Below, one piece after another: positions 1-14,508 of a DNA stretch of 20,937 nt. Made by a program: the position numbers and the translations under genes. Positions within the stretch are counted from its first letter, which is position 1. Each line of letters opens with the position of its first letter. The DNA comes from a virus: IMG/VR virus record IMGVR_UViG_3300031952_001943, positions 1-20,937 of that record; one strand, given 5' to 3'. A model generated the notes under the pieces. The model did no database searches, had not been told where the DNA came from, and saw only the letters and a list, made by a program, of their open reading frames with translations.

Positions 1-333
1 CGTTCGCCTTCTCGATGTCGGTGCGGAGCTTCAGTCCAAGGCTCATGGCCGAGTCCTTCCAGTTCACCAACTGCGCCTGCTTACCACCCACCGACACCAC
101 GAGGATCGCCCGCTCCGGCTTCACCTGCGCCACGGCGGCCAGCACTACGTTCGTCTTGCCGAGACCCGGCTCGTCCATGAGAAGGTATCCCCCATGCACC
201 GCCAGCCCTTCGAGGATGCGCTCCGCTCCCTCGATCTGGTGCGGGTAGAGTGAACGACCGTCCTTCATCTTGCGAAACTCCGGCCGGAGTTTCGCCTTTA
301 CGTCAGGAAGGAACTCGCGGTAGTCTGTGACTG
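1..333 (-). other. Start of SNF2-type superfamily 2 helicase domain (cut by window edge)
   Basis: In the same frame as the giant protein, the sequence reads DYREFLPDVKAKL, then SLYPHQIEGAERILEGL (Q-motif-like HQ), then GGYLLMDEPGLGKTNVVL (motif I, Walker A, with K1740), then ERAILVVSV (motif Ia region). This order is typical of SNF2/DEAD-like superfamily 2 enzymes. The usual DEMGLGKT appears here as DEPGLGKT. The DEAH-like motif II and the second RecA lobe would lie beyond the left edge. Confidence 0.85.
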
Positions 334-3300
334 CAACTTCCTGTTTCGGATCGTCTCGTACTGCCGCTTCCACTGGCGCATTTTCTCGAACAGCGACTTC
401 TGCTCCTGCTCGTTCAGAAGCTCGATGCCGTCCAGTGCCACCACCGTCTTCGGATCGAGTGGGTTTGACTCCTTCGGGTTCTCCTGTTCCACGGCCTATC
501 CCTCCCTTCGGCATATCCTTCGTCGGATCGACGAGGACGGTCTGAATGAATGTCTTGCCCGTCCGCGTGACCATGATCTTCTTGCGGATGAGCTTCGGGT
601 TGTCCTTCTTCCTCCCGGCCTTCAGGAGGTCAACGAGCGTCGCCCATCTCGACCGGATGAATCGCCCCGGAGGGAGAAGTACCGTGTCAGGATGTGCCCA
701 CCGCTTCGCCGTGTACGTCTTGCCTTTGCGCTTGACGTAGACGATCTTCGGGAACTTCGCACCACGTTTCGAGACGGCCTGTCCTGCCTTCAAGAGGGCC
801 AGCCCCTCCTCCATCGTGAGACCGGCCTTCTCAAAGAGCCTCCCCTGAAACGCTTCCCGGCCGATGTAGGTCTCGAAGTCGAGGTCACTCTCACCTTCGG
901 TGCGGCTCCCCGAGGTTTCGAGAGAGGACACAACCTCGACCTTGTGCGGGTTGATCGCCCGGTACAAGGCGTCCAGCATCTCGATCTGAACCGTCGTGAG
1001 GTGCTGAGGAAGGGCAACCTCCATGTCCCCGCCGATCTCGCCGAGGTTGGACAGCTTGACGGCATGGTACTTCTTCACGAACCAGTAGGGGCTGATGTAG
1101 TCCGAGGATTCACCGTAGTAGTCCGGCGCGTGGCCCTCTTCGAGTGCCCTCGCCGCTTCTGCCGTCCGAACGTGATCGCTCGGTTCCCCAATGCGCCTCC
1201 CGGCGAGCAGTACCCCATCCGGGAGGAGGTAGATCGCCTCCTTCCAGTTCTGCGTCGTGCCGATCTCCTGCTTCAAGTCCTCAAGGACGGACTTCGGCGT
1301 GATCTTCTTCGGCTCCCGTTCCTTCGTGACCACCGCTTTCTTCGTCCGGGGATCGGTGCGATAGTACCCCTTGTGCTTCGGAGATGGGGAGACGTAGACA
1401 CGCTTCGACTTCTCGAAAGCCTTCGCGTAGGCCAGTGCCCGCTCCGGCACCCGGAACGTGCGGCCCGCTTCGTCCACGATCCTCGCAAATCCCTCGCCGA
1501 TCTCCTTCACCCGCCCCACGATCCCACGGCCAAGAGAACCGGACGCCGCCGCACTGATCCGCACGGTCTCTCCCACATCCGCCGTCGGCTTCTTCTCCTC
1601 GGGTTGCTTGTGCTCATGCCGACGCCGGATGAACTCCTCAGCCTGCTCCCGCGTCTTCCCGACCTTCAGCCACCGGCCGCCGTGCTGGATGTAGAAGCCG
1701 TCCGGGCGCTTCTGAATGTCGTCCGGCTTCGGAGCCGGTGCCTGTTGCTTCGGCGCTTCACCCGGCTTCACCCACCGCTTCTGGTAGATGACACCCGTCG
1801 GCCGGTGCACCATGATCTGTTGCTGGATGAGTCCCGGAGCCGGGGCGGCTTTGAGTAGGCTCTTCAGAAGAGTGAGGCCGCTCTTCGTGATGCAGGCCCG
1901 GATCAGCGGCTCGACCTTTCCGAACTCCTCGTCCGTCAGGTAGGCGTGCTTGTAGACCTCGGGAAGGTTCTCTCCCGTGAGGTAGTGACCGTAGGGATGG
2001 ACAGCACCCGCCTTGTATTCGCCCCCCTCCTTCCGAGTCTTGTTGGCCGCGAACTGCTCGAAACACCGCGCCCACACTTCCATCGGGGAAGCTATGTACT
2101 CACTGATGTCCAAGAACCGGGAGACCGTTCCCATCCCCGCCAACTTGTCCCACAGTGCGACGAACTCGGTGCTCGGAGATGTCTCTCCGAAAGGCCGCAA
2201 CGCTCGGTTCACCACGTCGGGGGACAGCCACTTCTGCACTTGCTCGGCGGTGATCGGGTTGTTCCCGATACCCACATGGTAGTTCTTCACACCATGCTTC
2301 CGAGCATCCTCAAGCCATGCGTCCACGAGTTCCCGAGCCTCTTTCATGTCGATGCTGTAGAGAGCCTCTTTCGCCACCTCATCGTAGAGAGCCGATAGCA
2401 CCACTTTCTGCGGAAGGGATGAAGCCCCCCGTATTTCCTCATTCGACTGACGGTCGAACTCCTTGAGATTCAACCCGCGCATCATTGTGACGCCAGAATG
2501 GTAGTCAACAGCGTGCCCGATCTCATGCCCAATCGTTTCTTGGGAGTCACGCCGGATGTGGATGACGTTGTCCGACGGAACGAAGTCTCCCCGAACGGCC
2601 TCTCGGTTGAACCCGAAGCTGGTCTCGACGGAAAGTTCCACACCCTTGTCGTGAAGGAAGTCCCCGAGATCGCCGAAAGCCTCCCCGAGGTTGTTCAGGC
2701 CACGTTCCAGATTGTTCTGCGCCTCCAGAGGAAGAACGTGCAGACCTCGAACCTCCTTGAATCCTCGAAAGACAGGACGACCCTCTCCCTTCTTCTGCTC
2801 GGTCTCGGCGGGTGCACTCTCTGTGGCGGGTTCCTCACCCGGCTTGATCCACCGATCCGAGTAGAAGGTCTTCCCCGCCCTGTGTACCAGAACCTTCCTC
2901 TTCACCAGACCGGGTCGTGCCTTGAAGAGATCGAGTGCCTTGCGCCACAGGCTCTTCTCCTCCGGCTCGTAGGCAAGCTCCTCGGGCGTGTAGCGGAACT
3001 CCTCGGGTTGCTGGATGCCTTCACCCGGCATGGCGGGCACGATCTTGCCGCTCACCCGGTCGTACTTCTCCTCGTCCGGGAAGATGTGCTCCCACCAATG
3101 CCGACAACAGTTGTGCACGACGCACCCTCGCACAATGTAGCTCTCGTCATTTTCTACCGCCAGATTGTAGGTCGTTCGATGCTGACTACTCTGTGAAAAC
3201 CGAACCACTCGAACGCTGGAGACTTCTACGTCGGTGAACTCATACTCGTGCCGATCGTTTGCGACCACTCTCTGAACTTCCTCAACACAGGAGTCCACAC

Positions 3301-5374
3301 CCTTTGTGATCTCCGTACCGGAAAACCGCAACACTCGAAACCCCTCGGCTTCGATCTCTCGTTGCCGTTTCGCATCGTACTCCTTTTGCCGAAGATGCCA
3401 GTATTCCCCATCGCACTCGATCAGTACGTTCGTTCCAGAAACTCGGAAGTCTGCGAAGAACCTCCGCACGGGGAACTGCCGTTCGTAGCCGATGCCAACC
3501 TGATCCAATGCCTTTGCGAACCGAACTTCCAAAGGACTTCCCTTCGCTCCCTTCGCACAGGATTGCATCAGCTTTCTCCGGGACTCTGGAGTATTCAACC
3601 AGTTGAACTCGGCCATCTTTCGTCGAGCTACTACACGCGCGGCCTCTGTGATTTTCCGACGATCCTCCTTTGAGGTGCTTGCATACCTTTTCTGGACGAT
3701 CTCTCCCATCTGCCCTTTCTTGATCGCTCGGTATTCCGGCTTTTCCCACGTCCTCCTCATTGATAGCGTAGAGCGGCACGATGCACTGCACACGTCATTA
3801 GAGTCGAACCGCTCCGCATCACTCCACATGATGAGTTTTCCACAGACCTTGCACCGCTTCGCAAGCACTCGAACCTTGTCCCCTTTGCAAAGGTCTTTTG
3901 CGTCTACCCACCCTTTGCTCGTAAGGAACGGGTGCTCGAAAGTGCTCCGAAGAATGACCCGTCGATGCGTGTAGCTCCCCTTCTCACGAGCAAGGACGTG
4001 AAGCTGGACGTACCCCCTCGTTTCCTGTCCTCGATGAACTTGTGTCACGCGCCGGAAGCGCCCCTGATGGGTGAGAACAAGGTCTCCCACTCTGATTTTG
4101 GAAATCCCCATCCATCCCTTTGAAGTGAAAACCGGAATGGTGGGGTCTATGAAACACGGATGCGAAGGGATCGCCGCCCACCACTGGCTCATCTTCCGGC
4201 CGATGTTGTTCTTGCCGATCCATGTCACGCCGGTTGCCCACGGATCGAGTTCGATCCCGATGCGGTCGTCCTGTCTCTGCTTCACCGACGGATCGGCCAC
4301 GAGGAGGTAGATGTTCCCGATGAACTGGTTGCACCCACCCGCACCCTCCGGCGGATAGAACGGCCCGGAGTAGACGACGTAGGCTTTCTCGCCCTTCTCG
4401 GTCGCGTCCAGCACGGCCGCGAGGAAACCGTTGTTCATGGCCGTGCTCATCTCGGTGATCGCGATACGCCGCCAGTCCCGTTGCAGGTATTCGAGGTTGG
4501 CCTTGCTGTACTTCCCGCCGAGAGCATCCTGCGGGTCGATGTGGAAGAGACGGCTCGCGAGTGTGCTCGGGCCAGCACCGTCCTCGATGCTTCCCGTCAC
4601 CACCTTGCGAACGGCGTCCACGATCCCTCGCCGCAACGTGCCGTCCTTGATCGAGAGGTACTGACCGGCGCTCTGCCTTGCCTGCTCGACGCACCGCCGC
4701 ATGACCGGCCCCATGTCCACCGCATCTCTCGTATCTGAAAGATTTCGGGGCAATCCGTCCTTGAACTTGTCCGAGACCTGTGTCAGCGAGAGGTTCTTCA
4801 GTCCCTCCCGATCCAGCCCCTCCACGGCCCCATACGAGTATCGAAGCATCCCTAGCAGGCCAGCACGGAGGCCCATCTCGTCCCCGATGTCCCCGAGGTT
4901 TTCACGGAGGAACTCGACCATCCCGGTCTCCATTTCCTTCCACTGTGCCTCTGTCATGGGTGTACCAGTCTCGGGATTCGTGAACGTCCTGCCTCCGAGC
5001 TTCATCGGCTTTATGGTGCCTTTACCCGCGATGCCGTACCGCTTGTAGTAGTCGTGGAGGGGCGCTGGATCAGAAAGGTCTTCCAGAAGCGCCTTCAGCG
5101 CGTCCGGTATTGCCCACACGGGGGCTTTCGCCGCTTTGATGAGATCGGCCACGGGAACCGTGACCGACTTGGAGATGCTGTCAGGATCGACCCCGAACTT
5201 CCGCGACACGCCGCGCATCACTTCGCGCATCACGTCTCGGACGTAGGCGATGACGGCCTCCTGATACTCCCGCTCGAAACGGAACTCGGACAGAGGAAGC
5301 TCCCGCACCTCCCGCGCCTTCGCGAGGAGCGCCGACTGATTCAGCCGTTCGCCGTTGGTGATCGAGAACTTCAC
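1..5374 (-). CDS. Giant polyvalent protein, partial: MuF head-morphogenesis domain, intein, HExxH peptidase, SNF2 helicase start
   Basis: The minus frame is open from a GTG at 5374 to the left edge, giving 1791 full codons with no stop, so the C-terminus lies outside the window. Residues 1-406 resemble MuF-type head-morphogenesis proteins, ending in WWAAIPSHP. A 349-residue intein (407-755) follows, then the extein resumes with CCRHWWEHIF, so splicing would restore the MuF-like HPxCR motif. After repeat B2 comes a zinc-peptidase-like region with HEIGHAVDY (HEIGH at 950-954). Next are repeat B3, an SH3-like segment (GRGIVGRVKEIGEGFARIVD), repeat A4, a region with YLLPDGVLL, repeats B4 and B5, and a SNF2-like ATPase with DEPGLGKT (D1734 to T1741). 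Known MuF proteins attach at the portal, and polyvalent proteins are thought to be injected with phage DNA. The GTG start has only a weak ribosome site. Frame continuity was checked by translating the whole stretch by hand. Confidence 0.88.
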   Translation of the reverse strand, partial: MKFSITNGERLNQSALLAKAREVRELPLSEFRFEREYQEAVIAYVRDVMREVMRGVSRKFGVDPDSISKSVTVPVADLIKAAKAPVWAIPDALKALLEDLSDPAPLHDYYKRYGIAGKGTIKPMKLGGRTFTNPETGTPMTEAQWKEMETGMVEFLRENLGDIGDEMGLRAGLLGMLRYSYGAVEGLDREGLKNLSLTQVSDKFKDGLPRNLSDTRDAVDMGPVMRRCVEQARQSAGQYLSIKDGTLRRGIVDAVRKVVTGSIEDGAGPSTLASRLFHIDPQDALGGKYSKANLEYLQRDWRRIAITEMSTAMNNGFLAAVLDATEKGEKAYVVYSGPFYPPEGAGGCNQFIGNIYLLVADPSVKQRQDDRIGIELDPWATGVTWIGKNNIGRKMSQWWAAIPSHPCFIDPTIPVFTSKGWMGISKIRVGDLVLTHQGRFRRVTQVHRGQETRGYVQLHVLAREKGSYTHRRVILRSTFEHPFLTSKGWVDAKDLCKGDKVRVLAKRCKVCGKLIMWSDAERFDSNDVCSASCRSTLSMRRTWEKPEYRAIKKGQMGEIVQKRYASTSKEDRRKITEAARVVARRKMAEFNWLNTPESRRKLMQSCAKGAKGSPLEVRFAKALDQVGIGYERQFPVRRFFADFRVSGTNVLIECDGEYWHLRQKEYDAKRQREIEAEGFRVLRFSGTEITKGVDSCVEEVQRVVANDRHEYEFTDVEVSSVRVVRFSQSSQHRTTYNLAVENDESYIVRGCVVHNCCRHWWEHIFPDEEKYDRVSGKIVPAMPGEGIQQPEEFRYTPEELAYEPEEKSLWRKALDLFKARPGLVKRKVLVHRAGKTFYSDRWIKPGEEPATESAPAETEQKKGEGRPVFRGFKEVRGLHVLPLEAQNNLERGLNNLGEAFGDLGDFLHDKGVELSVETSFGFNREAVRGDFVPSDNVIHIRRDSQETIGHEIGHAVDYHSGVTMMRGLNLKEFDRQSNEEIRGASSLPQKVVLSALYDEVAKEALYSIDMKEARELVDAWLEDARKHGVKNYHVGIGNNPITAEQVQKWLSPDVVNRALRPFGETSPSTEFVALWDKLAGMGTVSRFLDISEYIASPMEVWARCFEQFAANKTRKEGGEYKAGAVHPYGHYLTGENLPEVYKHAYLTDEEFGKVEPLIRACITKSGLTLLKSLLKAAPAPGLIQQQIMVHRPTGVIYQKRWVKPGEAPKQQAPAPKPDDIQKRPDGFYIQHGGRWLKVGKTREQAEEFIRRRHEHKQPEEKKPTADVGETVRISAAASGSLGRGIVGRVKEIGEGFARIVDEAGRTFRVPERALAYAKAFEKSKRVYVSPSPKHKGYYRTDPRTKKAVVTKEREPKKITPKSVLEDLKQEIGTTQNWKEAIYLLPDGVLLAGRRIGEPSDHVRTAEAARALEEGHAPDYYGESSDYISPYWFVKKYHAVKLSNLGEIGGDMEVALPQHLTTVQIEMLDALYRAINPHKVEVVSSLETSGSRTEGESDLDFETYIGREAFQGRLFEKAGLTMEEGLALLKAGQAVSKRGAKFPKIVYVKRKGKTYTAKRWAHPDTVLLPPGRFIRSRWATLVDLLKAGRKKDNPKLIRKKIMVTRTGKTFIQTVLVDPTKDMPKGGIGRGTGEPEGVKPTRSEDGGGTGRHRASERAGAEVAVRENAPVEAAVRDDPKQEVAVTDYREFLPDVKAKLRPEFRKMKDGRSLYPHQIEGAERILEGLAVHGGYLLMDEPGLGKTNVVLAAVAQVKPERAILVVSVGGKQAQLVNWKDSAMSLGLKLRTDIEKAN
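518..586 (-). repeat. Protein repeat B, copy B5 (giant protein)
   Basis: It encodes RKKIMVTRTGKTFIQTVLVD followed by PTK, preceded by LVDLLKAG and placed just before the SNF2 part. Confidence 0.8.
686..751 (-). repeat. Protein repeat B, copy B4 (giant protein)
   Basis: It encodes PKIVYVKRKGKTYTAKRWAH followed by PD, preceded by LALLKAG. Confidence 0.82.
1337..1408 (-). repeat. Protein repeat A, copy A4 (giant protein)
   Basis: It encodes SKRVYVSPSPKHKGYYRTDP followed by RTKK, at residues 1323-1346. It is preceded by KAFEK, as A2 is preceded by KSFEK. Confidence 0.88.
1751..1825 (-). repeat. Protein repeat B, copy B3 (giant protein)
   Basis: It encodes QQQIMVHRPTGVIYQKRWVK followed by PGEAP, just after the peptidase-like region. 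Confidence 0.85.
1830..2830 (-). other. Zinc metallopeptidase-like domain (HExxH) inside the giant protein
   Basis: This segment lies between repeats B2 and B3 of the giant protein. It contains IHIRRDSQETIGHEIGHAVD, with the zincin motif HEIGH at residues 950-954. Downstream, SPMEVWARCFEQFA (E1099) resembles the conserved E...ARxFE segment seen in phage polyvalent-protein peptidase domains and could supply the third zinc ligand. Family knowledge suggests such domains act on host or virion proteins after injection. A role in maturing this polyprotein is my inference. The domain borders are approximate. Confidence 0.72.
2831..2902 (-). repeat. Protein repeat B, copy B2 (giant protein)
   Basis: It encodes KRKVLVHRAGKTFYSDRWIK followed by PGEE, just after the MuF extein resumes. 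Confidence 0.85.
3110..4156 (-). other. Intein with Vsr/DUF559-like homing endonuclease domain
   Basis: This is a 349-residue in-frame insertion within the giant MuF protein. It starts with Cys1 (CFIDPTIPVFTSKGW) and has a block-A-like segment ending IRVGDLVLTH. Block B contains STFEHPFLT with T72 and H75. Block F/G reads TYNLAVENDESYIVRG then CVVHN, ending in the canonical His-Asn, and the +1 extein residue is Cys. The Hint splicing fold occupies about 1-100 and 305-349. Between them are a Cys cluster (C102, C105, C123, C127) and a PD-(D/E)XK-like nuclease resembling Vsr/DUF559 (SPLE at 207-210, FFADF at 233-237, ECDGEYWH at 247-254). The insertion lies in the most conserved MuF motif, as is usual for inteins. 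GC looks lower than the host gene: hand counts of 60-base blocks give 50% at 3661 and 57% at 3421. All splicing residues are present, so activity is likely. Confidence 0.93.
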
Positions 5375-5383
5375 GCCGTCACT

Positions 5384-6829
5384 CTAGCCTCTCGGAGGCT
5401 GGTTGGGCTTCGCCTGTGCGATGGGCGTCCCGGTCTTCATGGACGACGCACCCGCACCGCGCACGAGCTTCTTCGGCCGGGGTTCCGGCGTTTGCAACTT
5501 CGCGAGTGGCGCAGTCGAAGGCTTTGGTGGTGCTTTCGAGCCGAGGGTCTGCGCGATCTGTTGCGGGAAAGCCTTCACGAGCCGCCCATCCTCCAACGTG
5601 CAGTTGAGGTCGTCGTCGGTGAAGATCGACTTGCGGAGGAAGGACTTCCCGTGAACCTCTCCACCCTCCTTCTTCCGCTGGTATGATGCTTTTCGCGCCT
5701 GCGACTCTTCGTGCTTTCTCACCGCTTTACCCTCGGGGGTCTGGTAGAACAAGTCGTGACGACGCTTATCCTCCACAGTGTCGCGCCAGCGATTGTACCC
5801 AAACTCCAAATCTTTCAAGCCCTTCTTTTTCCGCCACGTATCGTAGGGATGCTCCAAACCCTTTTCTCCTGCCTCTGCCCGCCGAAAAAGGTCTGCTACC
5901 CTCTCTTCCGCACTCGCGCCTTTTGTCTTCTCATGAGCCGCTCTCGCCTTTTCCCCACGAAAAGGTTCACCCTTCGGCCCGAACTTCTCTACGGTCTCTT
6001 TCCGCGTCCACGGCTTCTTCGCCAGCATCTCATTGGTGAAGTCAACGCCAGCCTGCATCCCCTTGACTTTCGCGGCAATCGCGTCCGTCCGTTCCTTGTC
6101 CCCAACGAATCTGGCCGCCCCTGTGTCCTCCGGCTTCTCTCCCGTGCTCACCCACTGCTTGCGCTGGAACGTCTTGCCCCCGCGCTTCACCGTGACCTGC
6201 TTCTGCGTGAGTTTGGAACGGTCGAAACCCTTCAGAAGACTCTCTTCGAGAAGCGCCGAGGCGTCTTCGAGACTCTTCTCGACCGAGGGCGGCCCGGACT
6301 CCTTGCCCGTCTCGATGCCGAACCGCTTCGCGGCCTTCCTGATCCTCGACCAGATCGACTTCTGTTGCTCCGGGCTGTAGACGCCCGCGTTCTTCGGCTT
6401 GCTGAAGTAGGAGATCGCCGCCCGAACGTGCCCTTCGTCGTCGATGGGGTACTTGAAGTTCTTCGGATCGGCGTACTGCTTCTCCTTCTTCGCCCCGCCC
6501 TCGCGGTACTCCTTCGGCGGCGTCTTGTGCCCGCCCTCGACCCCCGCCTTCGGGAGAGCCTTCACGAGCCTGCCGTCTTCCAGCGTGGCGCTCTTCAGCA
6601 GATCGTCGCCGTCCTTCTCGAATACACTCTTCTTCATGGCTCCAGCCTCCATTTTCTTCAGCCGTGTGTAGTAATTAGAAAACTCGGCAAGGTGATCGAG
6701 GGCAATCTTCCGAGCCAGCTTGGGATCGTTCGTGTGCTCCATCTCCACCTTGACGCCCATCGCCAACTCCCTCGGATCGGCGTCCTTCTCGGTGAAGTTT
6801 TCCTTGTCGGCCTTGCCTTCCATGTTCAT
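5384..6829 (-). CDS. Multi-module virion cargo-like protein: DUF5661 + DUF6582 + linker repeats
   Basis: This 481-residue protein starts at ATG 6829, which overlaps the upstream stop in an ATGA junction behind AGGAAG. A longer in-frame extension to 7045 overlaps the previous gene and is rejected. Residues about 22-60 (GVKVEMEHTNDPKLARKIAL) match my memory of DUF5661. Residues about 84-175 (DPKNFKYPIDDEGHVRAAIS, KSIWSRIRKAAKRFGI) match DUF6582. Repeat copies C3 (67-94), B1 (210-234), D2 (326-390) and C4 (399-423) follow, and the tail is Pro/Lys/Ala-rich. Nothing catalytic is visible. It sits just before the giant MuF gene and shares repeats with the sigma-like and giant proteins, which suggests a capsid-packaged or injected protein. 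That role is inferred. Confidence 0.85.
   Translation of the reverse strand: MNMEGKADKENFTEKDADPRELAMGVKVEMEHTNDPKLARKIALDHLAEFSNYYTRLKKMEAGAMKKSVFEKDGDDLLKSATLEDGRLVKALPKAGVEGGHKTPPKEYREGGAKKEKQYADPKNFKYPIDDEGHVRAAISYFSKPKNAGVYSPEQQKSIWSRIRKAAKRFGIETGKESGPPSVEKSLEDASALLEESLLKGFDRSKLTQKQVTVKRGGKTFQRKQWVSTGEKPEDTGAARFVGDKERTDAIAAKVKGMQAGVDFTNEMLAKKPWTRKETVEKFGPKGEPFRGEKARAAHEKTKGASAEERVADLFRRAEAGEKGLEHPYDTWRKKKGLKDLEFGYNRWRDTVEDKRRHDLFYQTPEGKAVRKHEESQARKASYQRKKEGGEVHGKSFLRKSIFTDDDLNCTLEDGRLVKAFPQQIAQTLGSKAPPKPSTAPLAKLQTPEPRPKKLVRGAGASSMKTGTPIAQAKPNQPPRG
5561..5635 (-). repeat. Protein repeat C, copy C4 (DUF5661/DUF6582 protein)
   Basis: It encodes RKSIFTDDDLNCTLEDGRLV followed by KAFPQ, a shortened copy in the same protein as C3. 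Confidence 0.78.
5660..5854 (-). repeat. Protein repeat D, copy D2 (DUF5661/DUF6582 protein)
   Basis: A module of about 65 residues: EHPYDTWRKKKGLKDLEFGY, then NRWRDTVEDKRRHDLFYQTP, then EGKAVRKHEE. It aligns with D1 almost without gaps. Confidence 0.88.
6128..6202 (-). repeat. Protein repeat B, copy B1 (DUF5661/DUF6582 protein)
   Basis: It encodes KQVTVKRGGKTFQRKQWVST followed by GEKPE. Pattern of family B: hydrophobic-x-V-x-R-x-G-K-T-F-x-x-x-x-W-V/I-x-x-G-E, preceded by an LLK segment. Confidence 0.85.
6548..6631 (-). repeat. Protein repeat C, copy C3 (DUF5661/DUF6582 protein)
   Basis: It encodes KSVFEKDGDDLLKSATLEDG followed by RLVKALPK. Confidence 0.82.
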
Positions 6830-7197
6830 GACTTCTTCCTCGCTTCGGGCGGCCCGGACAGCCTGTCCACGACCATACCCCATTCCTTCGTCGCGATTCT
6901 CCTGATACGTTTCCAGACCGATACTCGCTCCTTCACAGGGTACACGAGGTAGTTCTTCGGCTTGGAGAAGTCCCGCACCGCCGCCCTCACATGGGTCTCT
7001 GTGCCCATCGGGTACTTGAAGTTGTGCGGGTCGCCGTAGTCCCACTTCGACGTTTCCCCGGTCTCCCGGAACTGTTTCGGTGGTACGTTGTGCGCCCCTT
7101 CAGTGACGACTCTCTCCTTGCGCTCGCCCTTCTTGGTGATCCTTCCGGGGAGCGCCTTCACGAGGAGATGGCCGTTCATGAGGATGGCGTCGAACAC
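6826..7197 (-). CDS. DUF6582-like protein (123 aa)
   Basis: The preferred start is GTG 7197, which shares its G with the upstream stop (TAGTG). An internal ATG six codons later is an alternative. The protein begins VFDAILMNGHLLVKALPGR, a divergent copy of repeat C. Residues about 38-108 carry a DUF6582-like domain (DPHNFKYPMGTETHVRAAVR, then VSVWKRIRRIATKEWGM), clearly paralogous to that in the next gene. The two genes overlap by four bases and look like a duplication of the repeat-C plus DUF6582 unit. The function of DUF6582 is unknown; it is often found in phage structural neighbourhoods. Confidence 0.82.
   Translation of the reverse strand: MFDAILMNGHLLVKALPGRITKKGERKERVVTEGAHNVPPKQFRETGETSKWDYGDPHNFKYPMGTETHVRAAVRDFSKPKNYLVYPVKERVSVWKRIRRIATKEWGMVVDRLSGPPEARKKS
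7138..7197 (-). repeat. Protein repeat C, divergent copy C2 (123-aa DUF6582 protein)
   Basis: It encodes VFDAILMNGHLLVKALPGRI at the N-terminus; only the second half of the pattern is well kept. Confidence 0.6.
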
Positions 7198-7559
7198 TAC
7201 GAAACCAGCACGATGTTGACTACGTTCGCATGGGTCGTGTCGAGGTTCGTGAGCTTCAACGCCGTGATCGCCGATCCATCGGCCAACACAACGATCTTCC
7301 CGGATGAGACGGCTGTGACGATGGCGTTCCACTTCGCGCTCACCGCGTAGTCCGCGAAGATGAAGATCGCCGTGGCCGAGGTGATCTCGCCGAAGTCAAC
7401 GACGTGATCCGCTTCTGCCGCCGTCAGCGACACGTCCTGCACCACCGCTTTCGTGATTCCAGACAAGGTTTTGTTCACCACCCTGTTCACCCGGTCGTTC
7501 ACCGAACTCGTGGTCGCCGCACCGTAGAGCCGGAGCGAGATTGAGAGTGTCGCTTCCAT
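7197..7559 (-). CDS. Small beta-rich protein, possible virion structural component
   Basis: This 120-residue protein starts at ATG 7559, one base after the upstream stop (TAGCATG). It is Ala/Val/Thr/Ser-rich with alternating hydrophobic stretches (TSATAIFIFADYAVS, NAIVTAVSSGKIVVLADG, ALKLTNLDTTHANVVNIVLV), suggesting a compact beta sandwich. It has no Cys, no membrane segment and none of the A-D repeats. Its place between cargo-like genes in the head operon fits a minor head, decoration or fibre-like protein, but I recognise no family. Composition differs sharply from its Lys/Arg/Glu-rich neighbours. Confidence 0.75.
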   Translation of the reverse strand: MEATLSISLRLYGAATTSSVNDRVNRVVNKTLSGITKAVVQDVSLTAAEADHVVDFGEITSATAIFIFADYAVSAKWNAIVTAVSSGKIVVLADGSAITALKLTNLDTTHANVVNIVLVS

Positions 7560-7560
7560 G

Positions 7561-8640
7561 CTACTTCCCCGCCTTCTTCCGCAGGGCGTTGTGCGCCATC
7601 TTCTCGGCGGTCTCGTCGCTCATCTTCGGGTTGCCCTTCTTGAAGCGGGCGGCCATCCCCTTCGACTCGGCGCACTTCAGTAGGTCGCTGGCCTTCTGAA
7701 GCGACGCCATCGCGCCCTCTTCGGACGCCACCTTTGGCCCACCGAAATCGGCACCGGGGTTCTTGGACTTCTTGCCCTTGTTGGCGAGGCGCTTGCCCAT
7801 GCCACCCGGCTCTTTGTCTCCGCACTTCTCCAGCGGAATCTCGACGAGGTTGCCGTCCACGATCTCGTGGCTCTTCAGGAACTCGTCACCGTCACCGAAT
7901 ACCGAAGTCCTCTTGTCCGCGTTCATGATGTACCTCCCGACAGCGCCCCAAGACTTCAGGACGCGCTTGTCGTCGAAATCAGGGAAGTTCAAGCTGAACT
8001 TCCGAACCCGGCCGTCCGACGTGCGAACTTCCGTGTAGTAGTCCTCCATCTTGTCGCTCAACGTGAAGCCGTTCCCCGGAACGTACTTCCCGGCATCGCC
8101 CCCCGTGGTGTAGATCATCTGGTGCTTGCCGCCCTCGCTGTAGATCACGCTCTCCTGATTGAAGTCCTTGCCAAGCGCCGTGACCTCCTCGCGGTTCGCA
8201 TCGTGCACCAGCACGAGGTAGCTGTTCTCTTCGCCGCCGTAGTGTCCCTTGACCGGCGTGTAGACGTAGCCCAACTCCTTCAGCTTGCCCCCGAGCTTCT
8301 TGTGGCGGGCCTCGAAGTAGGGATCGTCTCCCTTCATGGCCTTCTCTTCGTCGGAGCCGGGGTTGCGCCCGGCCGAGACCAGCGCGTAGCGCACCTTCTC
8401 GGACTTCAGGAGCACCTCCAAGTCCATCGAGGACATGGCGTACTCGCGGCCCTGCCCCTTCTCCTGCCGCTTGGTGCCGTTCAAGAAGCGATAGACGGCT
8501 TCCTGCCTGTGATGCTCCGGCATCTCCTCGTAGGAAGCGTACCGCTTCTCGGCCGGTTCCTTCGGATGGGCCTCGCGAGGATCGAGCCGGTAGTAGGGTT
8601 TGCGCCCGCTACTGCCGCCGGGAACGAAAATCTTCTTCAC
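7561..8640 (-). CDS. DUF3293-like protein with N-terminal repeat A and internal repeat C
   Basis: This 359-residue protein starts at GTG 8640, sharing a base with the upstream stop (TAGTG), with AAGGGG upstream. A longer reading to 8760 runs into the upstream gene and is rejected. It begins directly with repeat A3 (VKKIFVPGGSSGRKPYYRLD). Residues about 84-185 resemble DUF3293: YALVSAGRNP, RHKKLGGKLKELGY, EENSYLVLVHD, then LGKDFNQESVIYSEGGKHQM. Repeat C1 is at 245-272. The last 45 residues are basic (SDETAEKMAHNALRKKAGK). DUF3293 function is not established. The repeats link it to the sigma-like and giant proteins. Confidence 0.85.
   Translation of the reverse strand: MKKIFVPGGSSGRKPYYRLDPREAHPKEPAEKRYASYEEMPEHHRQEAVYRFLNGTKRQEKGQGREYAMSSMDLEVLLKSEKVRYALVSAGRNPGSDEEKAMKGDDPYFEARHKKLGGKLKELGYVYTPVKGHYGGEENSYLVLVHDANREEVTALGKDFNQESVIYSEGGKHQMIYTTGGDAGKYVPGNGFTLSDKMEDYYTEVRTSDGRVRKFSLNFPDFDDKRVLKSWGAVGRYIMNADKRTSVFGDGDEFLKSHEIVDGNLVEIPLEKCGDKEPGGMGKRLANKGKKSKNPGADFGGPKVASEEGAMASLQKASDLLKCAESKGMAARFKKGNPKMSDETAEKMAHNALRKKAGK
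7825..7908 (-). repeat. Protein repeat C, copy C1 (DUF3293-like protein)
   Basis: It encodes TSVFGDGDEFLKSHEIVDGN followed by LVEIPLEK. Pattern of family C: S-V-F-x-x-D-G-D-x-L-L-K-S-x-x-L-E-D-G-x-L-V-K. Confidence 0.75.
8572..8640 (-). repeat. Protein repeat A, copy A3 (start of DUF3293-like protein)
   Basis: It encodes VKKIFVPGGSSGRKPYYRLD followed by PRE, at the extreme N-terminus. Confidence 0.85.
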
Positions 8641-10661
8641 TAGTCGGCCCCTTGCACTTCCGCTTCGGTCATGTGCCTGCCACGAACGGGGTGCATCCCG
8701 GCGGCCTTCGTCGCAAGCTCCTTCGTCGAGTACACCGGAGCCGGGCGCTCTTGGCCCCATCCCTTCTGCCCTTGCGGGATGTAGGTGAACCCGCCCTTGA
8801 TCTTCATGATGTCGCGAACCATGTCGTCCGCACCGAACACGCTCCCTACCTTGCCCTCACCCGCCGGTTCCCCGGACTCTGCCACGCGGGTCTGCTTCCT
8901 CTCACGAGCGGCCTTGCGAGACGCCGCATCTTCCTGCTTCCGAAGAGCCTGTCCCTCCGGGGTCTGGTAGAACTTCTTCCGTCGAGCATTGTCCTCCGTG
9001 ACGGCCTGCCAGTAGTTCCCCTTGAAGTCCAGAGGTTTCATCCCCTGCTTTCTCTTCCATGCGTCGTAAGGGTGCTCCTTCTTCGCCGCCGGAGTTTGCC
9101 CGCCCACCGTCCCTGTCATGGCTCCCGAACCATCGGGGAGCTTCGCCATTGTTGCCTTCTTCTCTCGCGGGTCTTGACGGTAGTACCCCTTCCGCTTCGC
9201 TGAAGGCTTCACGAAGATGCGCTTGCTCTTCTCAAAGGACTTTTCCTCATAGAGTGGTTCCGTTTCAGTCCTGTCGATGAAGTCCTCCAACATTCCTCGC
9301 GTGACGTGCTTAGGAAGAAAACCGCTGATAGAAGATGACCTGTCCCAAACGTAGTCACCGAAGGTTTGGAGCAGTTCTCGCTTCAACCCCACATTCTTCA
9401 CACCCTTCTCCGAGAGAAACGCCTCGACCACTTTCTTTGCCCTTGCATCGTACTGATCTTCCTCTTTTCGAGTTCTTGGATCGTTCCTGTAGTAGCCCTT
9501 GTGTCTCAGCGAGGGCTTCACGAAGATGCGCTTGGCCTTCGCGAGGAGACTCTGGCCGACCCGCATCACCCACCCGATCTTCGGCTCCTGCAACGCCTTC
9601 TCCAGCGTGACGATGTTCTCGAAGAGCGCCTTCTCCATGCGCTCGCCGACCTTCTCCAGTACGTCGTCGGGCACGTCGGTCAGGCCGAGGCTTTCGATGG
9701 CCTTCAGCATCTCCTCGGCCACGATGTTCTCGATGACCTGCGACGCCGTCTTGGCCGGGTACATTTCCCGCATCACCCACCCGCTCAGTGTCTTGATCCG
9801 GGCGAGGTGCTTCTCGACCCCCTGCCGCGTCATGCCCAACTGCTTCGCCACGGCCGAGTGCGTCGCGGGCCTCCCGCTCGTGCGCTGGTTCTCGATGAGA
9901 ATCTGGAGCACCTTCGACTGTGTGGGGTTGAGCTTCTGGTAGACCTCTTGCAGGATGCGGTCGGCGTTCATTCGCTGGAAGATCGCTTCGTCCATCGCCA
10001 CCGGCTCGTGCGCCGCTATCGTTTCGCCAAGCGAGACTACCTCGTCGCCCTCTTCGCCACCTCCCGCAACCGGCTTGTCGAGACTCACCTCACCCGGCCC
10101 GGCGCTCATCACGTCCACACCCATGCCGCCCCGCTTCTTCGTTGCGGCCGGGACGAAATACTCGTGCAGAGCGTCCCGGAGCCGCCGGTAGGCGTAGGTG
10201 CCGAACGTGGCGGGCTCACCCGTCGTCGAAAGGGTGATGGCCTTCTTCGGATCGAAAGTGCTCACGGCCTCCCACAGAGCCAGCCGCCCCACCTGTTGCG
10301 CGTCCTCGTCGGCACGGGACATCTTCGGCTTGTGCGCGTAGAGCCGGTCAATCCAGTTCCGTACCATCGCTCCGATCAGCCGGTCGTTCGTCTTGTAGAA
10401 CGTGCGGAGGGCGTCCTCGTTTCGCCGAACGCGGGCCACGTCCATCTCGCTCATGTCCCGGATGAAGTAGTCAGACTGCTTCGTGCGGCCCTTCGCCGCC
10501 CCCTCCATCTCGTGCTCCTCGATGGGCCGGATGTAGAACGTCTGCCAGTAGCCCTTCTTCGTCTGAATCTTCCGGGGGATCAGCCCCGCCCGGTCGATCC
10601 TCGGCATCGCGAAGCCCTTCTCTAGGAGCTTCTCCGGTATGGGAAGGATGAAACGCATCAT
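8640..10661 (-). CDS. Sigma-70-like factor fused to a virion-cargo-type repeat tail
   Basis: This 673-residue protein starts at ATG 10661, overlapping the portal stop as ATGA, with GAGAGAAGG upstream. Residues about 91-170 resemble sigma-70 region 2: ADEDAQQVGRLALWEAVSTF followed by DP, then FGTYAYRRLRDALHEYF. Residues about 244-295 form a region-4-like helix-turn-helix (LNPTQSKVLQILIE, then HSAVAKQLGMTRQGVEKHLA). An acidic/Gly linker separates them. The tail carries repeats A1 (376-400), A2 (479-502) and D1 (529-590). Sigma factors direct RNA polymerase to promoters, and a phage copy could switch on viral genes. Its position between portal and MuF genes, plus repeats shared with polyvalent proteins, suggests it may be carried in the virion. 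That is inference; the alternative is a normal late regulator. Confidence 0.85.
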   Translation of the reverse strand: MMRFILPIPEKLLEKGFAMPRIDRAGLIPRKIQTKKGYWQTFYIRPIEEHEMEGAAKGRTKQSDYFIRDMSEMDVARVRRNEDALRTFYKTNDRLIGAMVRNWIDRLYAHKPKMSRADEDAQQVGRLALWEAVSTFDPKKAITLSTTGEPATFGTYAYRRLRDALHEYFVPAATKKRGGMGVDVMSAGPGEVSLDKPVAGGGEEGDEVVSLGETIAAHEPVAMDEAIFQRMNADRILQEVYQKLNPTQSKVLQILIENQRTSGRPATHSAVAKQLGMTRQGVEKHLARIKTLSGWVMREMYPAKTASQVIENIVAEEMLKAIESLGLTDVPDDVLEKVGERMEKALFENIVTLEKALQEPKIGWVMRVGQSLLAKAKRIFVKPSLRHKGYYRNDPRTRKEEDQYDARAKKVVEAFLSEKGVKNVGLKRELLQTFGDYVWDRSSSISGFLPKHVTRGMLEDFIDRTETEPLYEEKSFEKSKRIFVKPSAKRKGYYRQDPREKKATMAKLPDGSGAMTGTVGGQTPAAKKEHPYDAWKRKQGMKPLDFKGNYWQAVTEDNARRKKFYQTPEGQALRKQEDAASRKAARERKQTRVAESGEPAGEGKVGSVFGADDMVRDIMKIKGGFTYIPQGQKGWGQERPAPVYSTKELATKAAGMHPVRGRHMTEAEVQGAD
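8892..9077 (-). repeat. Protein repeat D, copy D1 (sigma-like protein)
   Basis: A module of about 62 residues: EHPYDAWKRKQGMKPLDFKG, then NYWQAVTEDNARRKKFYQTP, then a basic helix. It is collinear with D2. Confidence 0.88.
9156..9227 (-). repeat. Protein repeat A, copy A2 (sigma-like protein)
   Basis: It encodes SKRIFVKPSAKRKGYYRQDP followed by REKK, about 100 residues after A1 in the same protein. Confidence 0.88.
9462..9536 (-). repeat. Protein repeat A, copy A1 (sigma-like protein)
   Basis: It encodes AKRIFVKPSLRHKGYYRNDP followed by RTRKE. Pattern of family A: K+-hydrophobic-V-x-P-S-x-x-+-K-G-Y-Y-R-x-D-P-R. Confidence 0.88.
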
Positions 10662-12373
10662 GACCTTCTCTCCTCGTCGTCACGCCCGCCGAACCGGATT
10701 GTGACGTACTCGTCTGCCAGTGACTTCGCGGTTTCGGACTCCTTCATGGCCTGATCGACGCCTGTGTCAACGGCCTGTCCCATCTCTTTGTCGTTCAGCG
10801 CGTCGAACCCACCCATGCCACCGCCCTCTTCCTCACCGGGCTGTCCGGGTTGCCCCGGCTGGCCGCCCATCGCCTGTTGCTGTTGCGCCATCTGTTGCTG
10901 TTGCGCCATCTGCTTCTCTTGCTGGATGAACTGGACGTAGGTGGGGTTCAGAATGATGTCGCCGCCTTCGATGGGGGGATCGTCATGGAGAGCGCGAATC
11001 TCATTGATGGTCTTGCGATACGAGACCTGCTGTTGCTCGATGGCCGTGGCTTCACGCTTGTCCTCGATCTCGACGCCCGTGAAGACGAACTCGAAGTCCT
11101 CCCATCCCTTCTGCTCGGCCATGATCTTGTTGAAGAAGTGCCGCAAGAAGAAGAGGAGGTCTTTCACACCCGCATCGTGGCTCGCCTTGCGTTGCTGATC
11201 GGCGGCGATACCGCTGTTGCCGATGCTGATCGACGATGACTGCTCGAAACGCAGGCCGACTTCGGAAGGGTCGATCTTGTGGATCGAGCAAATCCACGCC
11301 TGCAACGTGTCCATGTACTTCGTGTACTCCATGTCGCGGTTCGCCGGGGCGAGGTTGTTCCACCGTGCCCCGTACTGGAGGAACGGCGTCTTCCACATAC
11401 CCTTGATGCCGCCGAACATCGCCATCCACTGCCGCTGAAGCTCTTCGAGTTGCTCACGGTCGAGCGTCCCCGTCTTCGGATCGAAACTGAAGAAGCCCTT
11501 CGGCATGGCGCTGTTGGAGAACTGGTCACGGTTGTACGCCGTCGCAAAGAGGAATGACGTGATGGTGTCGATGCTCTGCTCCAGCGGGCTGTAGCCGAAC
11601 AATCGGAACTTCACGTCGCTCCGCTTGTTCATGAAGTCGAAGAGGAGGTCGTCCCACCCGAACTCGGACACGATCTGGTCGAGCACCATCTGGACGTACC
11701 CGACCTCCATGTCTCCGTTCAGCCCCTTGCGAGGATCGACCGGGAAGATCGTGGCCGCATCGAGAACGTGCCAGTCGAGTACCTGACCGCCGTTGCTCTT
11801 GCGAAGCTCAACCGCCACCTGATCTATCGTGAGGAGGTCGCGCACGAGCATTTCCATCGCGTCGCCGAGCTTGGGCCGCTTCTTCGGCTCACCCTTCGGT
11901 GGATCGAACTTGAAGCCGGTGTCGTCGAACCATTTCGTGATCTGCTTGATGGCCTTCTTCTCACCGGACGAAGGATCGCGCTCTTGATCCTTGATCGTGA
12001 TCTTCCAGCCGGGCTTGTCGTCGTCGGTGCTCGGCTCCGAGAACGTCCTGATCTGTGACGCCCGCTTGTTGTGGATCGCACCGACCACTACCACCTGATC
12101 GGCCACGCGCCGGAGGATGTCGAATGAGAGGTTGAAGAACTTGCGACGGATGCCACGCGGATCGTAGAGGCCGAACTCGTACCAGTAGAGGGGGAGTTGC
12201 TCACCCTTCAGCTTCGGGACTTTCTTGCCCGTGATGACCTTGCTCTCTTCGCCGCCTTCGACTTTGCGGGACTGATCGGCTTTCATGAGGTTGGCGAGGC
12301 TGGAGAAGTCTTCGCCTTCGGAGAAGTAGGGTACGAGGCTGTCCTGTGTGTTGGGATCGAACTCTTCAGCCAT
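10658..12373 (-). CDS. Phage portal protein
   Basis: This 571-residue protein starts at ATG 12373 behind GGAGG at good spacing, just after a terminator. Portal proteins form the dodecameric ring at the packaging vertex. Features fitting the family are the stem/wing-like core (VELRKSNGGQVLDWHVLDAA, TIFPVDPRKG), the conserved segment RLFGYSPLEQSIDTITSFLF, then AYNRDQFSNSAMPKGFFSFD, and QQVSYRKTINEIRALHDDPP near the end (compare the common T.NE.R...g..p). The C-terminal 80 residues are Gln- and Gly-rich with two MAQQQQ units, an unstructured tail. The stop overlaps the sigma-like gene by four bases, implying coupled translation. Confidence 0.93.
   Translation of the reverse strand: MAEEFDPNTQDSLVPYFSEGEDFSSLANLMKADQSRKVEGGEESKVITGKKVPKLKGEQLPLYWYEFGLYDPRGIRRKFFNLSFDILRRVADQVVVVGAIHNKRASQIRTFSEPSTDDDKPGWKITIKDQERDPSSGEKKAIKQITKWFDDTGFKFDPPKGEPKKRPKLGDAMEMLVRDLLTIDQVAVELRKSNGGQVLDWHVLDAATIFPVDPRKGLNGDMEVGYVQMVLDQIVSEFGWDDLLFDFMNKRSDVKFRLFGYSPLEQSIDTITSFLFATAYNRDQFSNSAMPKGFFSFDPKTGTLDREQLEELQRQWMAMFGGIKGMWKTPFLQYGARWNNLAPANRDMEYTKYMDTLQAWICSIHKIDPSEVGLRFEQSSSISIGNSGIAADQQRKASHDAGVKDLLFFLRHFFNKIMAEQKGWEDFEFVFTGVEIEDKREATAIEQQQVSYRKTINEIRALHDDPPIEGGDIILNPTYVQFIQQEKQMAQQQQMAQQQQAMGGQPGQPGQPGEEEGGGMGGFDALNDKEMGQAVDTGVDQAMKESETAKSLADEYVTIRFGGRDDEERRS
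10874..10909. repeat. 18-bp tandem direct repeat (2 copies) in the portal gene
   Basis: Two perfect copies of an 18-base unit (plus strand CTGTTGCTGTTGCGCCAT) lie end to end and encode two MAQQQQ units on the minus strand. This low-complexity segment in the portal tail is a likely site of length variation. Confidence 0.9.
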
Positions 12374-12467: not shown

Positions 12468-12689
12468 CTACAAGTCTCGCTCGATCTTCAGGGCACCCAT
12501 CGGGATCGTCTCTCGACGCTCGATGAGCACCGGATCGCCCTTGCGAAACCTTACGACGACCTCCCCGTAGAACCTGTCTCGGGAGAGCCGCCGCAGGTAG
12601 GACACGAGTTCATCCAAGCTCGCGTTCCTGTGTATGATTATAGGCTTCTTTGCCCCTTCGTCAACCCTTTTCCGAGCGTCAGATGACAC
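12468..12689 (-). CDS. DUF2292/YezD-like small protein
   Basis: This 73-residue protein starts at GTG 12689, overlapping the end of the terminase gene by 11 bases, with GGAGGGG upstream. The core LDELVSYLRRLSRDRFYGEV, then VVRFRKGDPVLIERRETIP resembles the small DUF2292/YezD family (helix followed by a strand-turn-strand ending in IE+RE). The function is unknown. Its stop is followed within 30 bases by a strong terminator, so it is the last gene of the terminase transcript. Confidence 0.8.
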   Translation of the reverse strand: MSSDARKRVDEGAKKPIIIHRNASLDELVSYLRRLSRDRFYGEVVVRFRKGDPVLIERRETIPMGALKIERDL

Positions 12690-14508
12690 CGGGCACCCCT
12701 CCTCCCCTGTCCCGGCCGGTCATCCGGTCGTACCCGATCCGGGCGTAGTTGTACGCATGGGCGAAGTGATCCGGGCCGATCTTCCCCACGACCTCGTACT
12801 CGGCCCCCGTAGTGGGGTCTTCTATCCGCTCCACGGCAAGGGCGCAAATGTGGTCAACGAACACCGTCGTAAGGGGGTCGAGCCGGGGGAAGGAGATGTC
12901 CTTCTCCCGGAAGCTCTTCAGAATGAGCTTCAGGGTGCCTGTACGACTCACCGTGACCTTGTTCTGGTTCAGAATCCACATGGGTTCGATGACCTTGGTG
13001 CGCTTCTTCTGCTTCTGCTTCTCATCGGTGTCGTAGAACAGACCGTATGCCCGCATCTTGTACCGCCGGATCAGGATTGAGTTGCGGTCGTTTCCGATCC
13101 CGTTCGCGTCGTTGACGACGATCCCGGCGCTGAAACGGTCAATGATCTGCCCCGCCCTTCCGACGTGATCGGTGTCGGCCCCGGAGAACCCGTGCTGTTG
13201 CAGGCTCTCCTTGTCGATCCGCTCCATGTAGATGACCGAGGGAGTGTCCGGGTTCCCCGGTACGCCGTCCCCCATCACCACCACCCACGAGACTGTCGGC
13301 CCCCAATCTATGCCGATGGCGGTGTTCTTGACCGTCGCCACCTTCATGAAGCTGTTGGCGAGAGACGGATCGCTACACGCTTCCACCGACGCCCTCGGGA
13401 TGTTGGCGTCCTCCCCGACGTAGGCGTAGCCCACCACCTCGTTCCAGAACTGGTGGACGTAGCGGTAGCCGTGGTACTTGTAGAGGATTTCCTTGCCCGT
13501 CTTCCACGGGAGCATGAAGTACGTCACGCGGTAGCTGTGTCGCAGTCCCTCCAGTGACGGCCGCCTTGCGTACCACCCCGAGTGCTTCAGGTAGAACGGG
13601 CTTGTCCTGTCGATGTACTCCTTGCAGAACTTGCACCCAATGTAGACCTTGTCGAGACGCTTCTGGTAGCTCCCCTCGTCCTCCCGGAGCGCCGTCTTCT
13701 CGAAGAACCCTATGATGCTGTCCGGGAAGGTCATCTGCTGACGCTTGTGACACCTCGGACAAACTAGCCACCACTCGTGCCCTGTCGCATCGCTGAAGCG
13801 GGCGTCGATACCGCCCCCCGGAAACATGGGGGTGCTGATCCTCGTGCGCCTTGCCAGCGTAGAGTGTGATGTGCTCTCCCCGAAAATCTCCTCGATCTTC
13901 TCGTTCTGGCTCTCGTACTCGTCGAACGTGATCTTGTCACTGGTAGGGCCGCGTCCCCCGGTCTCCGAGTACGAGGACGCCACCGTGTAGAAGCTCCCAT
14001 TCGAGAAGCCGTGCGACGACAGAGAGATGGGCTTCAACAACCGCACCCGCACAGACGGGCTGTTCATGATCGAGGGATGGATGCGCTCCTTCGCCACTTG
14101 GTTCGCCACCGAGGCGATAGGGAAGATGTGCCGTACCATCGTATTCGGCCGGGTACAGGACAGGTAGATGTTGTCCGAAATCTCGGATTCGGTAAACTCG
14201 GATTGGCGACATTTTATAATGCTCTTGTCCTGTACCGTGTCCTTCAGCACCTTGTTCAAGTAGGGCCGGGGCGCGGTCGTCAACGGGCCGTCCTTCTCCC
14301 CCCGCATCATGGACACGCCCGCATCGTCGTAGCGGAACGGCTTGCCGCTCAGAAGCCGGTTCTTCTCCGTCCACGCCATCACGTCCAGCGTCCCCTCGAA
14401 GCTGTCCGGTATCTCCTCCAAGTCACTGAACGCAGAGAACAGCCTCTCCCCGACGTGGCGCTTCCCCGTTCCCGGTATGATCTCTAGGTGCTTGAAGTCG
14501 ATGCCCAC
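12679..14508 (-). CDS. terL: Terminase large subunit, GpA-like
   Basis: This 609-residue protein starts at GTG 14508 with GGGAGGGGAG upstream. It is the ATP-driven DNA packaging motor and headful/cos nuclease. Visible features are a motif-I position IIKCRQSEFTESE (98-109), a Walker B DKITFDEYE (191-199), and an inserted zinc finger (C250, C253, C292, C295) of the kind found in lambda gpA-type terminases. The RuvC-like nuclease has GIDWGPT (D401), VVNDANGIGN (D467) and GPDHFAHAYNYA (D580). Length fits the family. The Walker A lysine region is unusual because Gly-Lys is replaced by Glu-Phe. No small terminase is recognisable nearby; the 88-residue gene just upstream occupies the usual place. 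Confidence 0.92.
   Translation of the reverse strand: MGIDFKHLEIIPGTGKRHVGERLFSAFSDLEEIPDSFEGTLDVMAWTEKNRLLSGKPFRYDDAGVSMMRGEKDGPLTTAPRPYLNKVLKDTVQDKSIIKCRQSEFTESEISDNIYLSCTRPNTMVRHIFPIASVANQVAKERIHPSIMNSPSVRVRLLKPISLSSHGFSNGSFYTVASSYSETGGRGPTSDKITFDEYESQNEKIEEIFGESTSHSTLARRTRISTPMFPGGGIDARFSDATGHEWWLVCPRCHKRQQMTFPDSIIGFFEKTALREDEGSYQKRLDKVYIGCKFCKEYIDRTSPFYLKHSGWYARRPSLEGLRHSYRVTYFMLPWKTGKEILYKYHGYRYVHQFWNEVVGYAYVGEDANIPRASVEACSDPSLANSFMKVATVKNTAIGIDWGPTVSWVVVMGDGVPGNPDTPSVIYMERIDKESLQQHGFSGADTDHVGRAGQIIDRFSAGIVVNDANGIGNDRNSILIRRYKMRAYGLFYDTDEKQKQKKRTKVIEPMWILNQNKVTVSRTGTLKLILKSFREKDISFPRLDPLTTVFVDHICALAVERIEDPTTGAEYEVVGKIGPDHFAHAYNYARIGYDRMTGRDRGGGVPGVI

Follow-up and report, generated by a model that had tools for sequence, protein, structure and literature searches.

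Inteins are usually discussed as residents of DNA-handling enzymes. The DNA analyzed here, a 20,937-nucleotide virus record (IMG/VR IMGVR_UViG_3300031952_001943; hereafter the window), raises the question of what a 349-residue insertion represents when it interrupts the most conserved motif of a phage head gene from an environmental sample. A preliminary description had read it as an intein at 3110-4156 (minus strand), and translation shows those limits, and the length, to be exact to the base: the insertion lies in a single open frame of 1,791 codons (window 2-5374, minus strand), which continues past the end of the contig, and runs from residue 407 of that frame (Cys1) to residue 755 (the terminal Asn349), with Cys+1 as the next residue. 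Each of the splicing residues named there (Cys1, T72 and H75, the terminal His-Asn pair H348-N349, and Cys+1) is present.

The insert is a complete predicted self-splicing intein and not a chance resemblance. Its N-terminal splicing (Hint) part, with Cys1 and the block B residues T72xxH75 (3857-4156, minus strand), was delimited by PF07591/PF14890, by invariant columns of the family alignment and by high-pLDDT strands in the structural model; the C-terminal part (3110-3250, minus strand), which ends in VVHN ahead of Cys+1, was delimited by TIGR01443 and the invariant H348 and N349. Pfam returned Intein_splicing (E 3.5e-7) and PT-HINT (E 1.3e-6, over its cut-off), and the score for NCBIfam intein_Cterm (TIGR01443) is likewise over cut-off. 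In an 18-member family alignment C1, T72, H75, C102, C105, C123, C127 and E210 are invariant, as are D236, E247, D249, G250, W253, H254, H348 and N349. An AlphaFold model of the intein (mean pLDDT 82.3) finds solved inteins (6qaz, 7qss) when compared with the PDB by Foldseek, and the G+C content of the intein is 0.54 against 0.61-0.62 in the flanking gene on either side. The Hint fold, Cys1, TxxH, His-Asn, the +1 nucleophile and an in-frame insertion that has no counterpart in homologues are the features of a class 1 intein.

The center of the intein, overlooked in the preliminary description, is by sequence and predicted fold a zinc finger followed by an endonuclease domain of the Vsr/DUF559 (EDxHD) type. 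The zinc-finger-like element (3776-3853, minus strand) consists of four cysteines, C102-C105...C123-C127, that are invariant in 18 relatives. The nuclease (3257-3535, minus strand), with conserved E210, D236, E247-C-D249 and H254, matches DUF559 (Pfam, E 3.9e-15), and Foldseek aligns the model with the catalytic domain of I-Bth0305I (3r3p; TM 0.80 on target); a family profile search retrieved 3hrl (4.1e-12) and 3r3p (9.5e-11) as well as PI-MtuI and Vsr. Both the catalytic-domain fold and the conserved acidic and histidine residues of EDxHD homing endonucleases are thus found within the intein. In the alignment with 18 relatives, the linker between zinc finger and nuclease is ~40 residues shorter in the window than in most, and because these residues are absent, nuclease activity could be altered. 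A search of the window's own intein for a nested antisense nuclease found none.

The protein that carries the intein is harder to classify. Its N-extein (4157-5374, minus strand), which ends in ...IPSHP, appears to be a divergent MuF-like head-morphogenesis domain; we say MuF-like because the PF04233 score (E 6.3e-4, 14.6 bits) falls below the curated cut-off of 29.6. The PHROG head morphogenesis profile matches at 3.5e-4, and hhalign against MuF exteins gives an E-value of 7.3e-5 and a probability of 62%. The context is that of a MuF-type gene, as the spliced sequence SHPCCRH yields the HPxC motif and genes for the terminase large subunit (12679-14508, minus strand; phrog_675, 4.9e-87) and portal protein (10658-12373, minus strand; phrog_12, 7.6e-40) lie upstream. 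We therefore place the protein, with moderate confidence, in the MuF family as a divergent member. The C-extein (2-3109, minus strand) is an open frame of at least 1,036 residues, cut off at the contig end, whose first codons, CCRHWW (3092-3109, minus strand), would complete the HPxC motif on splicing. Further along it contains a metallopeptidase-like HEIGHAVDYH motif (2471-2533, minus strand), recognized by inspection and with a weak Peptidase_M48 match (E 0.06), a GSRxxGxSDLD nucleotidyltransferase-like motif, also seen by inspection and unsupported by Pfam, and, truncated by the contig end, the beginning of a SNF2/helicase-like domain (113-241, minus strand; PHROG 62 DNA helicase, 9e-11; SNF2-rel_dom, 0.0095). 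A MuF-like domain with an enzyme-like C-extein fits the 'polyvalent proteins' described by Iyer et al. (2017, PMC5512222), fusions of MuF with enzymes that are presumed to be injected, and joining the two parts of the window protein, the second more than 1,000 residues long, would need splicing.

The surrounding genes have features of their own. Motifs of ~28 residues recur in ~10 copies between the domains of four adjacent proteins (window 2-10661; for example KRKVLVHRAGKTFYSDRWIKPGEEP and KRIFVKPSAKRKGYYRQDPR) and may serve as a common signal for packaging or processing. A match to S-adenosylmethionine lyase (7561-8760; PF23780, 1.8e-7), a known anti-restriction activity of phages, lies among the head genes, and a sigma-factor-like protein (8640-10661; phrog_351, 2.1e-17), whose tail contains the recurring motifs, is encoded directly after the portal gene.

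Direct searches of viral contigs and 50,697 phage records returned no match to the N-extein, and relatives identified through the portal (L056, L057) had no detectable MuF relative; an empty-site homologue, L215, was reached via relatives of the terminase. This 430-residue protein, encoded on a 39.6-kb viral contig, is 37% identical to the window protein, lacks the insert and stops shortly past the motif. The spliced window product aligns with it across the junction without a gap, IPSHP/CCRHWW against IPAHP-QCIHYW (a slash marks the point of insertion; IPSHPCCRHWWEHIFPDEEKYD against IPAHPQCIHYWSEIDPTVEEWD), and the local alignment score is 674 for the spliced sequence compared with 633 for the unspliced one. 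A more distant relative, L219, is also free of the insert (VHPHCRGRW). The preliminary description, which had located the intein within the HPxC motif of a MuF-type protein, had proposed Hint profiles and an alignment with insert-free relatives as checks on its reading; Intein_splicing, PT-HINT and TIGR01443 all match, L215 is gapless across the junction and L219 is likewise empty. Neither of the outcomes that it had named as counting against an intein, a failure of Hint profiles to match or retention of the same residues by homologues as a constant part of the protein, was encountered, since the profiles do match and a homologue without the insert aligns gaplessly.

The analysis covered 66 distinct full-length inteins from scans of viral and genome contigs, counting the window's, with ten of them in other genes; those named by eye reside in SufB-like (archaea) and DNA-methylase-like (bacteria) hosts (L074, L075, L089, L101, L102). 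Uncultivated phages carry about 50 distinct related inteins in MuF-type proteins, almost always at this same HPxC motif, and 35 of 43 N-exteins scanned match PF04233 MuF at E ≤0.01. The commonest forms of insertion are HPx/CRC and xIN/CRC. Two inteins, L131 and L137, are inserted at the next cysteine of HPxCxC, and as each clusters separately in the tree with an HPx/CRC intein (support 99 and 96), the insertion register has apparently shifted at least twice. The window insertion, HP/CCRH, is shifted upstream by one codon relative to the usual register, to a site equivalent at the DNA level to entry between two adjacent cysteine codons (TGT TGT), which would be compatible with microhomology during homing. 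One MuF protein, L154, contains two inteins, at an upstream cysteine site (DSRT/C...HN/CIRC) and at HPx/CRC. Mini-inteins that lack the nuclease and have intact ends occupy the same site (L064, 143 residues; L072, ~145 residues), and the coexistence there of full inteins, mini-inteins and empty sites is what a homing cycle would predict. The window intein itself is an isolated long branch in the tree, and no close relative was found in the collections searched.

That the window, from a tailed phage, carries a full-length class 1 homing intein, active or recently active, in its MuF-like head protein seems to us highly probable; splicing residues, zinc finger and nuclease residues are all intact and the gene is open across the insert. 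From the biochemistry of inteins, one would expect Cys1 to attack first, the acyl group to be transferred to Cys+1, and cyclization of Asn349 to release exteins ligated as SHPCCRHWW, which would restore the HPxC motif and link the MuF domain to the enzyme-like tail. The EDxHD nuclease would cleave MuF genes that lack the intein, close to the conserved motif, and the intein would be copied in during repair; such homing would explain why insertions recur at a single motif in phages that are unrelated. It is very improbable that the element is instead a Hint autoprocessing domain, of the pretoxin PT-HINT kind of polymorphic toxins or of the BIL kind, that cleaves the chain and frees its downstream part without ligation. 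The PT-HINT match over cut-off and a large enzyme-like C-extein whose release might benefit a phage would suit such a role, but the insert ends in His-Asn followed by Cys+1 (a cysteine present at +1 in 66/66 inteins analyzed), has a homing nuclease inside, and is followed by a C-extein that takes up the MuF motif gaplessly relative to insert-free L215. A polymorphic toxin with a PT-HINT pretoxin domain was rejected because the MuF motif resumes past the insert in this way.

Two further readings leave splicing in place. An intein whose nuclease is dead and which persists through vertical inheritance alone, a variant of the homing-intein reading rather than its opposite, is a possibility to which we give some weight, though well short of an even chance: the shortened linker and the isolated long branch would suit it, whereas E210, D236, E247, D249 and H254 are all retained in an open frame and other short-linker members of the family exist (L031, L131, L133). 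We consider it improbable that the intein is a regulated switch in which the timing of splicing sets the attachment of enzyme-like cargo to the head domain. Splicing is indeed required to connect MuF with the long tail, yet nothing in the sequence demands a switch, and empty-site relatives manage without an intein.

Having found a homing intein the best reading of the window, we turn to how exceptional its host is. The preliminary description had called a MuF protein an unusual one, which is contradicted by a 2004 report, by dozens of uncultivated phages and by six groups of cultured phages: MuF inteins were found in phages of Gordonia, Vibrio, Aggregatibacter, Idiomarinaceae, Escherichia and Salmonella. 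Their insertion sites include EVIN/CRC (Gordonia Lennon), PNA/CRS (Vibrio 1.266.O) and HPN/CRS (Salmonella Jerseyvirus), and the Hint parts of Gordonia inteins rank among the window's best matches in cultured phages. Escherichia Kagunavirus phages bear the annotation 'minor head protein with inserted intein'. In Salmonella Jerseyvirus, 58 of 351 matching records span 80% or more of the gene with the intein, and the site is empty (HPNCRS) in relatives, SETP3 among them. Among cultured Escherichia phages, fEg-Eco06 and KMB36 carry the intein and BEU33 and BASEL Bas71 lack it. Near-identical culturable phage pairs that differ in whether they have a MuF intein make it possible to measure splicing and homing directly, together with any burden on head assembly. 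The window intein is thus by all appearances genuine, yet not unique, and the MuF head protein is a common and under-recognized landing site.

In all eight cultured phages examined (Escherichia fEg-Eco06, Salmonella celemicas, Gordonia Fosterous and Vivi2, Aaphi23, Idiomarinaceae 1N2-2, Vibrio 1.265 and PvVp04), an EDxHD nuclease homologous to that of the window family is encoded antisense within the MuF intein, always codon-aligned, with no nuclease recognized in the sense frame. Vibrio 1.266.O has such an antisense nuclease as well (DUF559, 2.1e-10). The loci concerned are L220 3180-3947 (plus strand), L228, L229, L230, L231, L232, L233, L234 and L055. Between Gordonia Fosterous and Vivi2, substitutions at sense codon positions 1/2/3 number 37/11/23 in the spacer and 13/6/78 in the exteins (positions 1 versus 3, spacer versus exteins, Fisher p 1.9e-9); between Salmonella celemicas and BPS11T2 they number 17/6/6 in the spacer and 7/6/46 in the N-extein. 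As position 1 of a sense codon pairs with position 3 of the antisense codon, the spacer appears to evolve as an antisense protein gene. The inteins of celemicas and dunkel are identical and those of fEg-Eco06 and KMB36 differ at 2 of 894 bases, in exteins that have diverged strongly, pointing to recent homing. The Gordonia Lennon MuF intein (L054 3128-6238) has a 237-codon antisense open frame that looks LAGLIDADG-like by eye (AAYVAAFIDGEGTV), with Pfam support absent. A search for the antisense nuclease in 369 genomes from the class to which G010, a Dokdonella MAG, belongs, run with no positive control, gave no match at 1e-6. It seems likely, on balance, that tailed phages in general have an intein hotspot at the MuF cysteine motif, used by one EDxHD lineage that takes two forms, in frame (the window and ~50 relatives) or as a nested gene on the opposite strand (the six cultured groups), with registers shifted between neighboring cysteine codons and the window one codon upstream.

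That inteins recur at the MuF motif makes a virion component one of their standard targets, and several known systems help to place the window's. The 2004 genome paper on Methylococcus capsulatus Bath reported an intein in F (gp30) of a Mu-like prophage (PMC517821); among open-licence papers we found no other description of MuF inteins. Its host, as in the window, is a MuF-family head protein, but that intein was reported to have no recognizable endonuclease and to be closest to archaeal IF-2 inteins, unlike the one here. The inteins of Gordonia phages (Lennon, Barsten, Vivi2), Vibrio 1.266.O and Salmonella Jerseyvirus share the window's motif, although none has a recognized sense-strand nuclease and most have an antisense one, whereas the window's is sense and in frame. 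A survey of mycobacteriophages (PMC5050341) described TerL inteins at sites a and b, one residue apart, which resemble the window family in occupying a conserved motif and in the closeness of their sites; there, however, the host is the terminase, and the text makes no mention of MuF or capsid proteins. I-Bth0305I (PDB 3r3p) has the same Vsr-like catalytic fold as the window nuclease but resides in a group I intron rather than an intein. The antisense form, if true, would be a new architecture for inteins: an out-of-frame nuclease has been described in a phage methylase insertion (PMC11855218), but, in the excerpt of that report considered here, it lies in another frame of the same strand and is not accompanied by an intein splicing domain, whereas the nucleases of the cultured MuF inteins are antisense.
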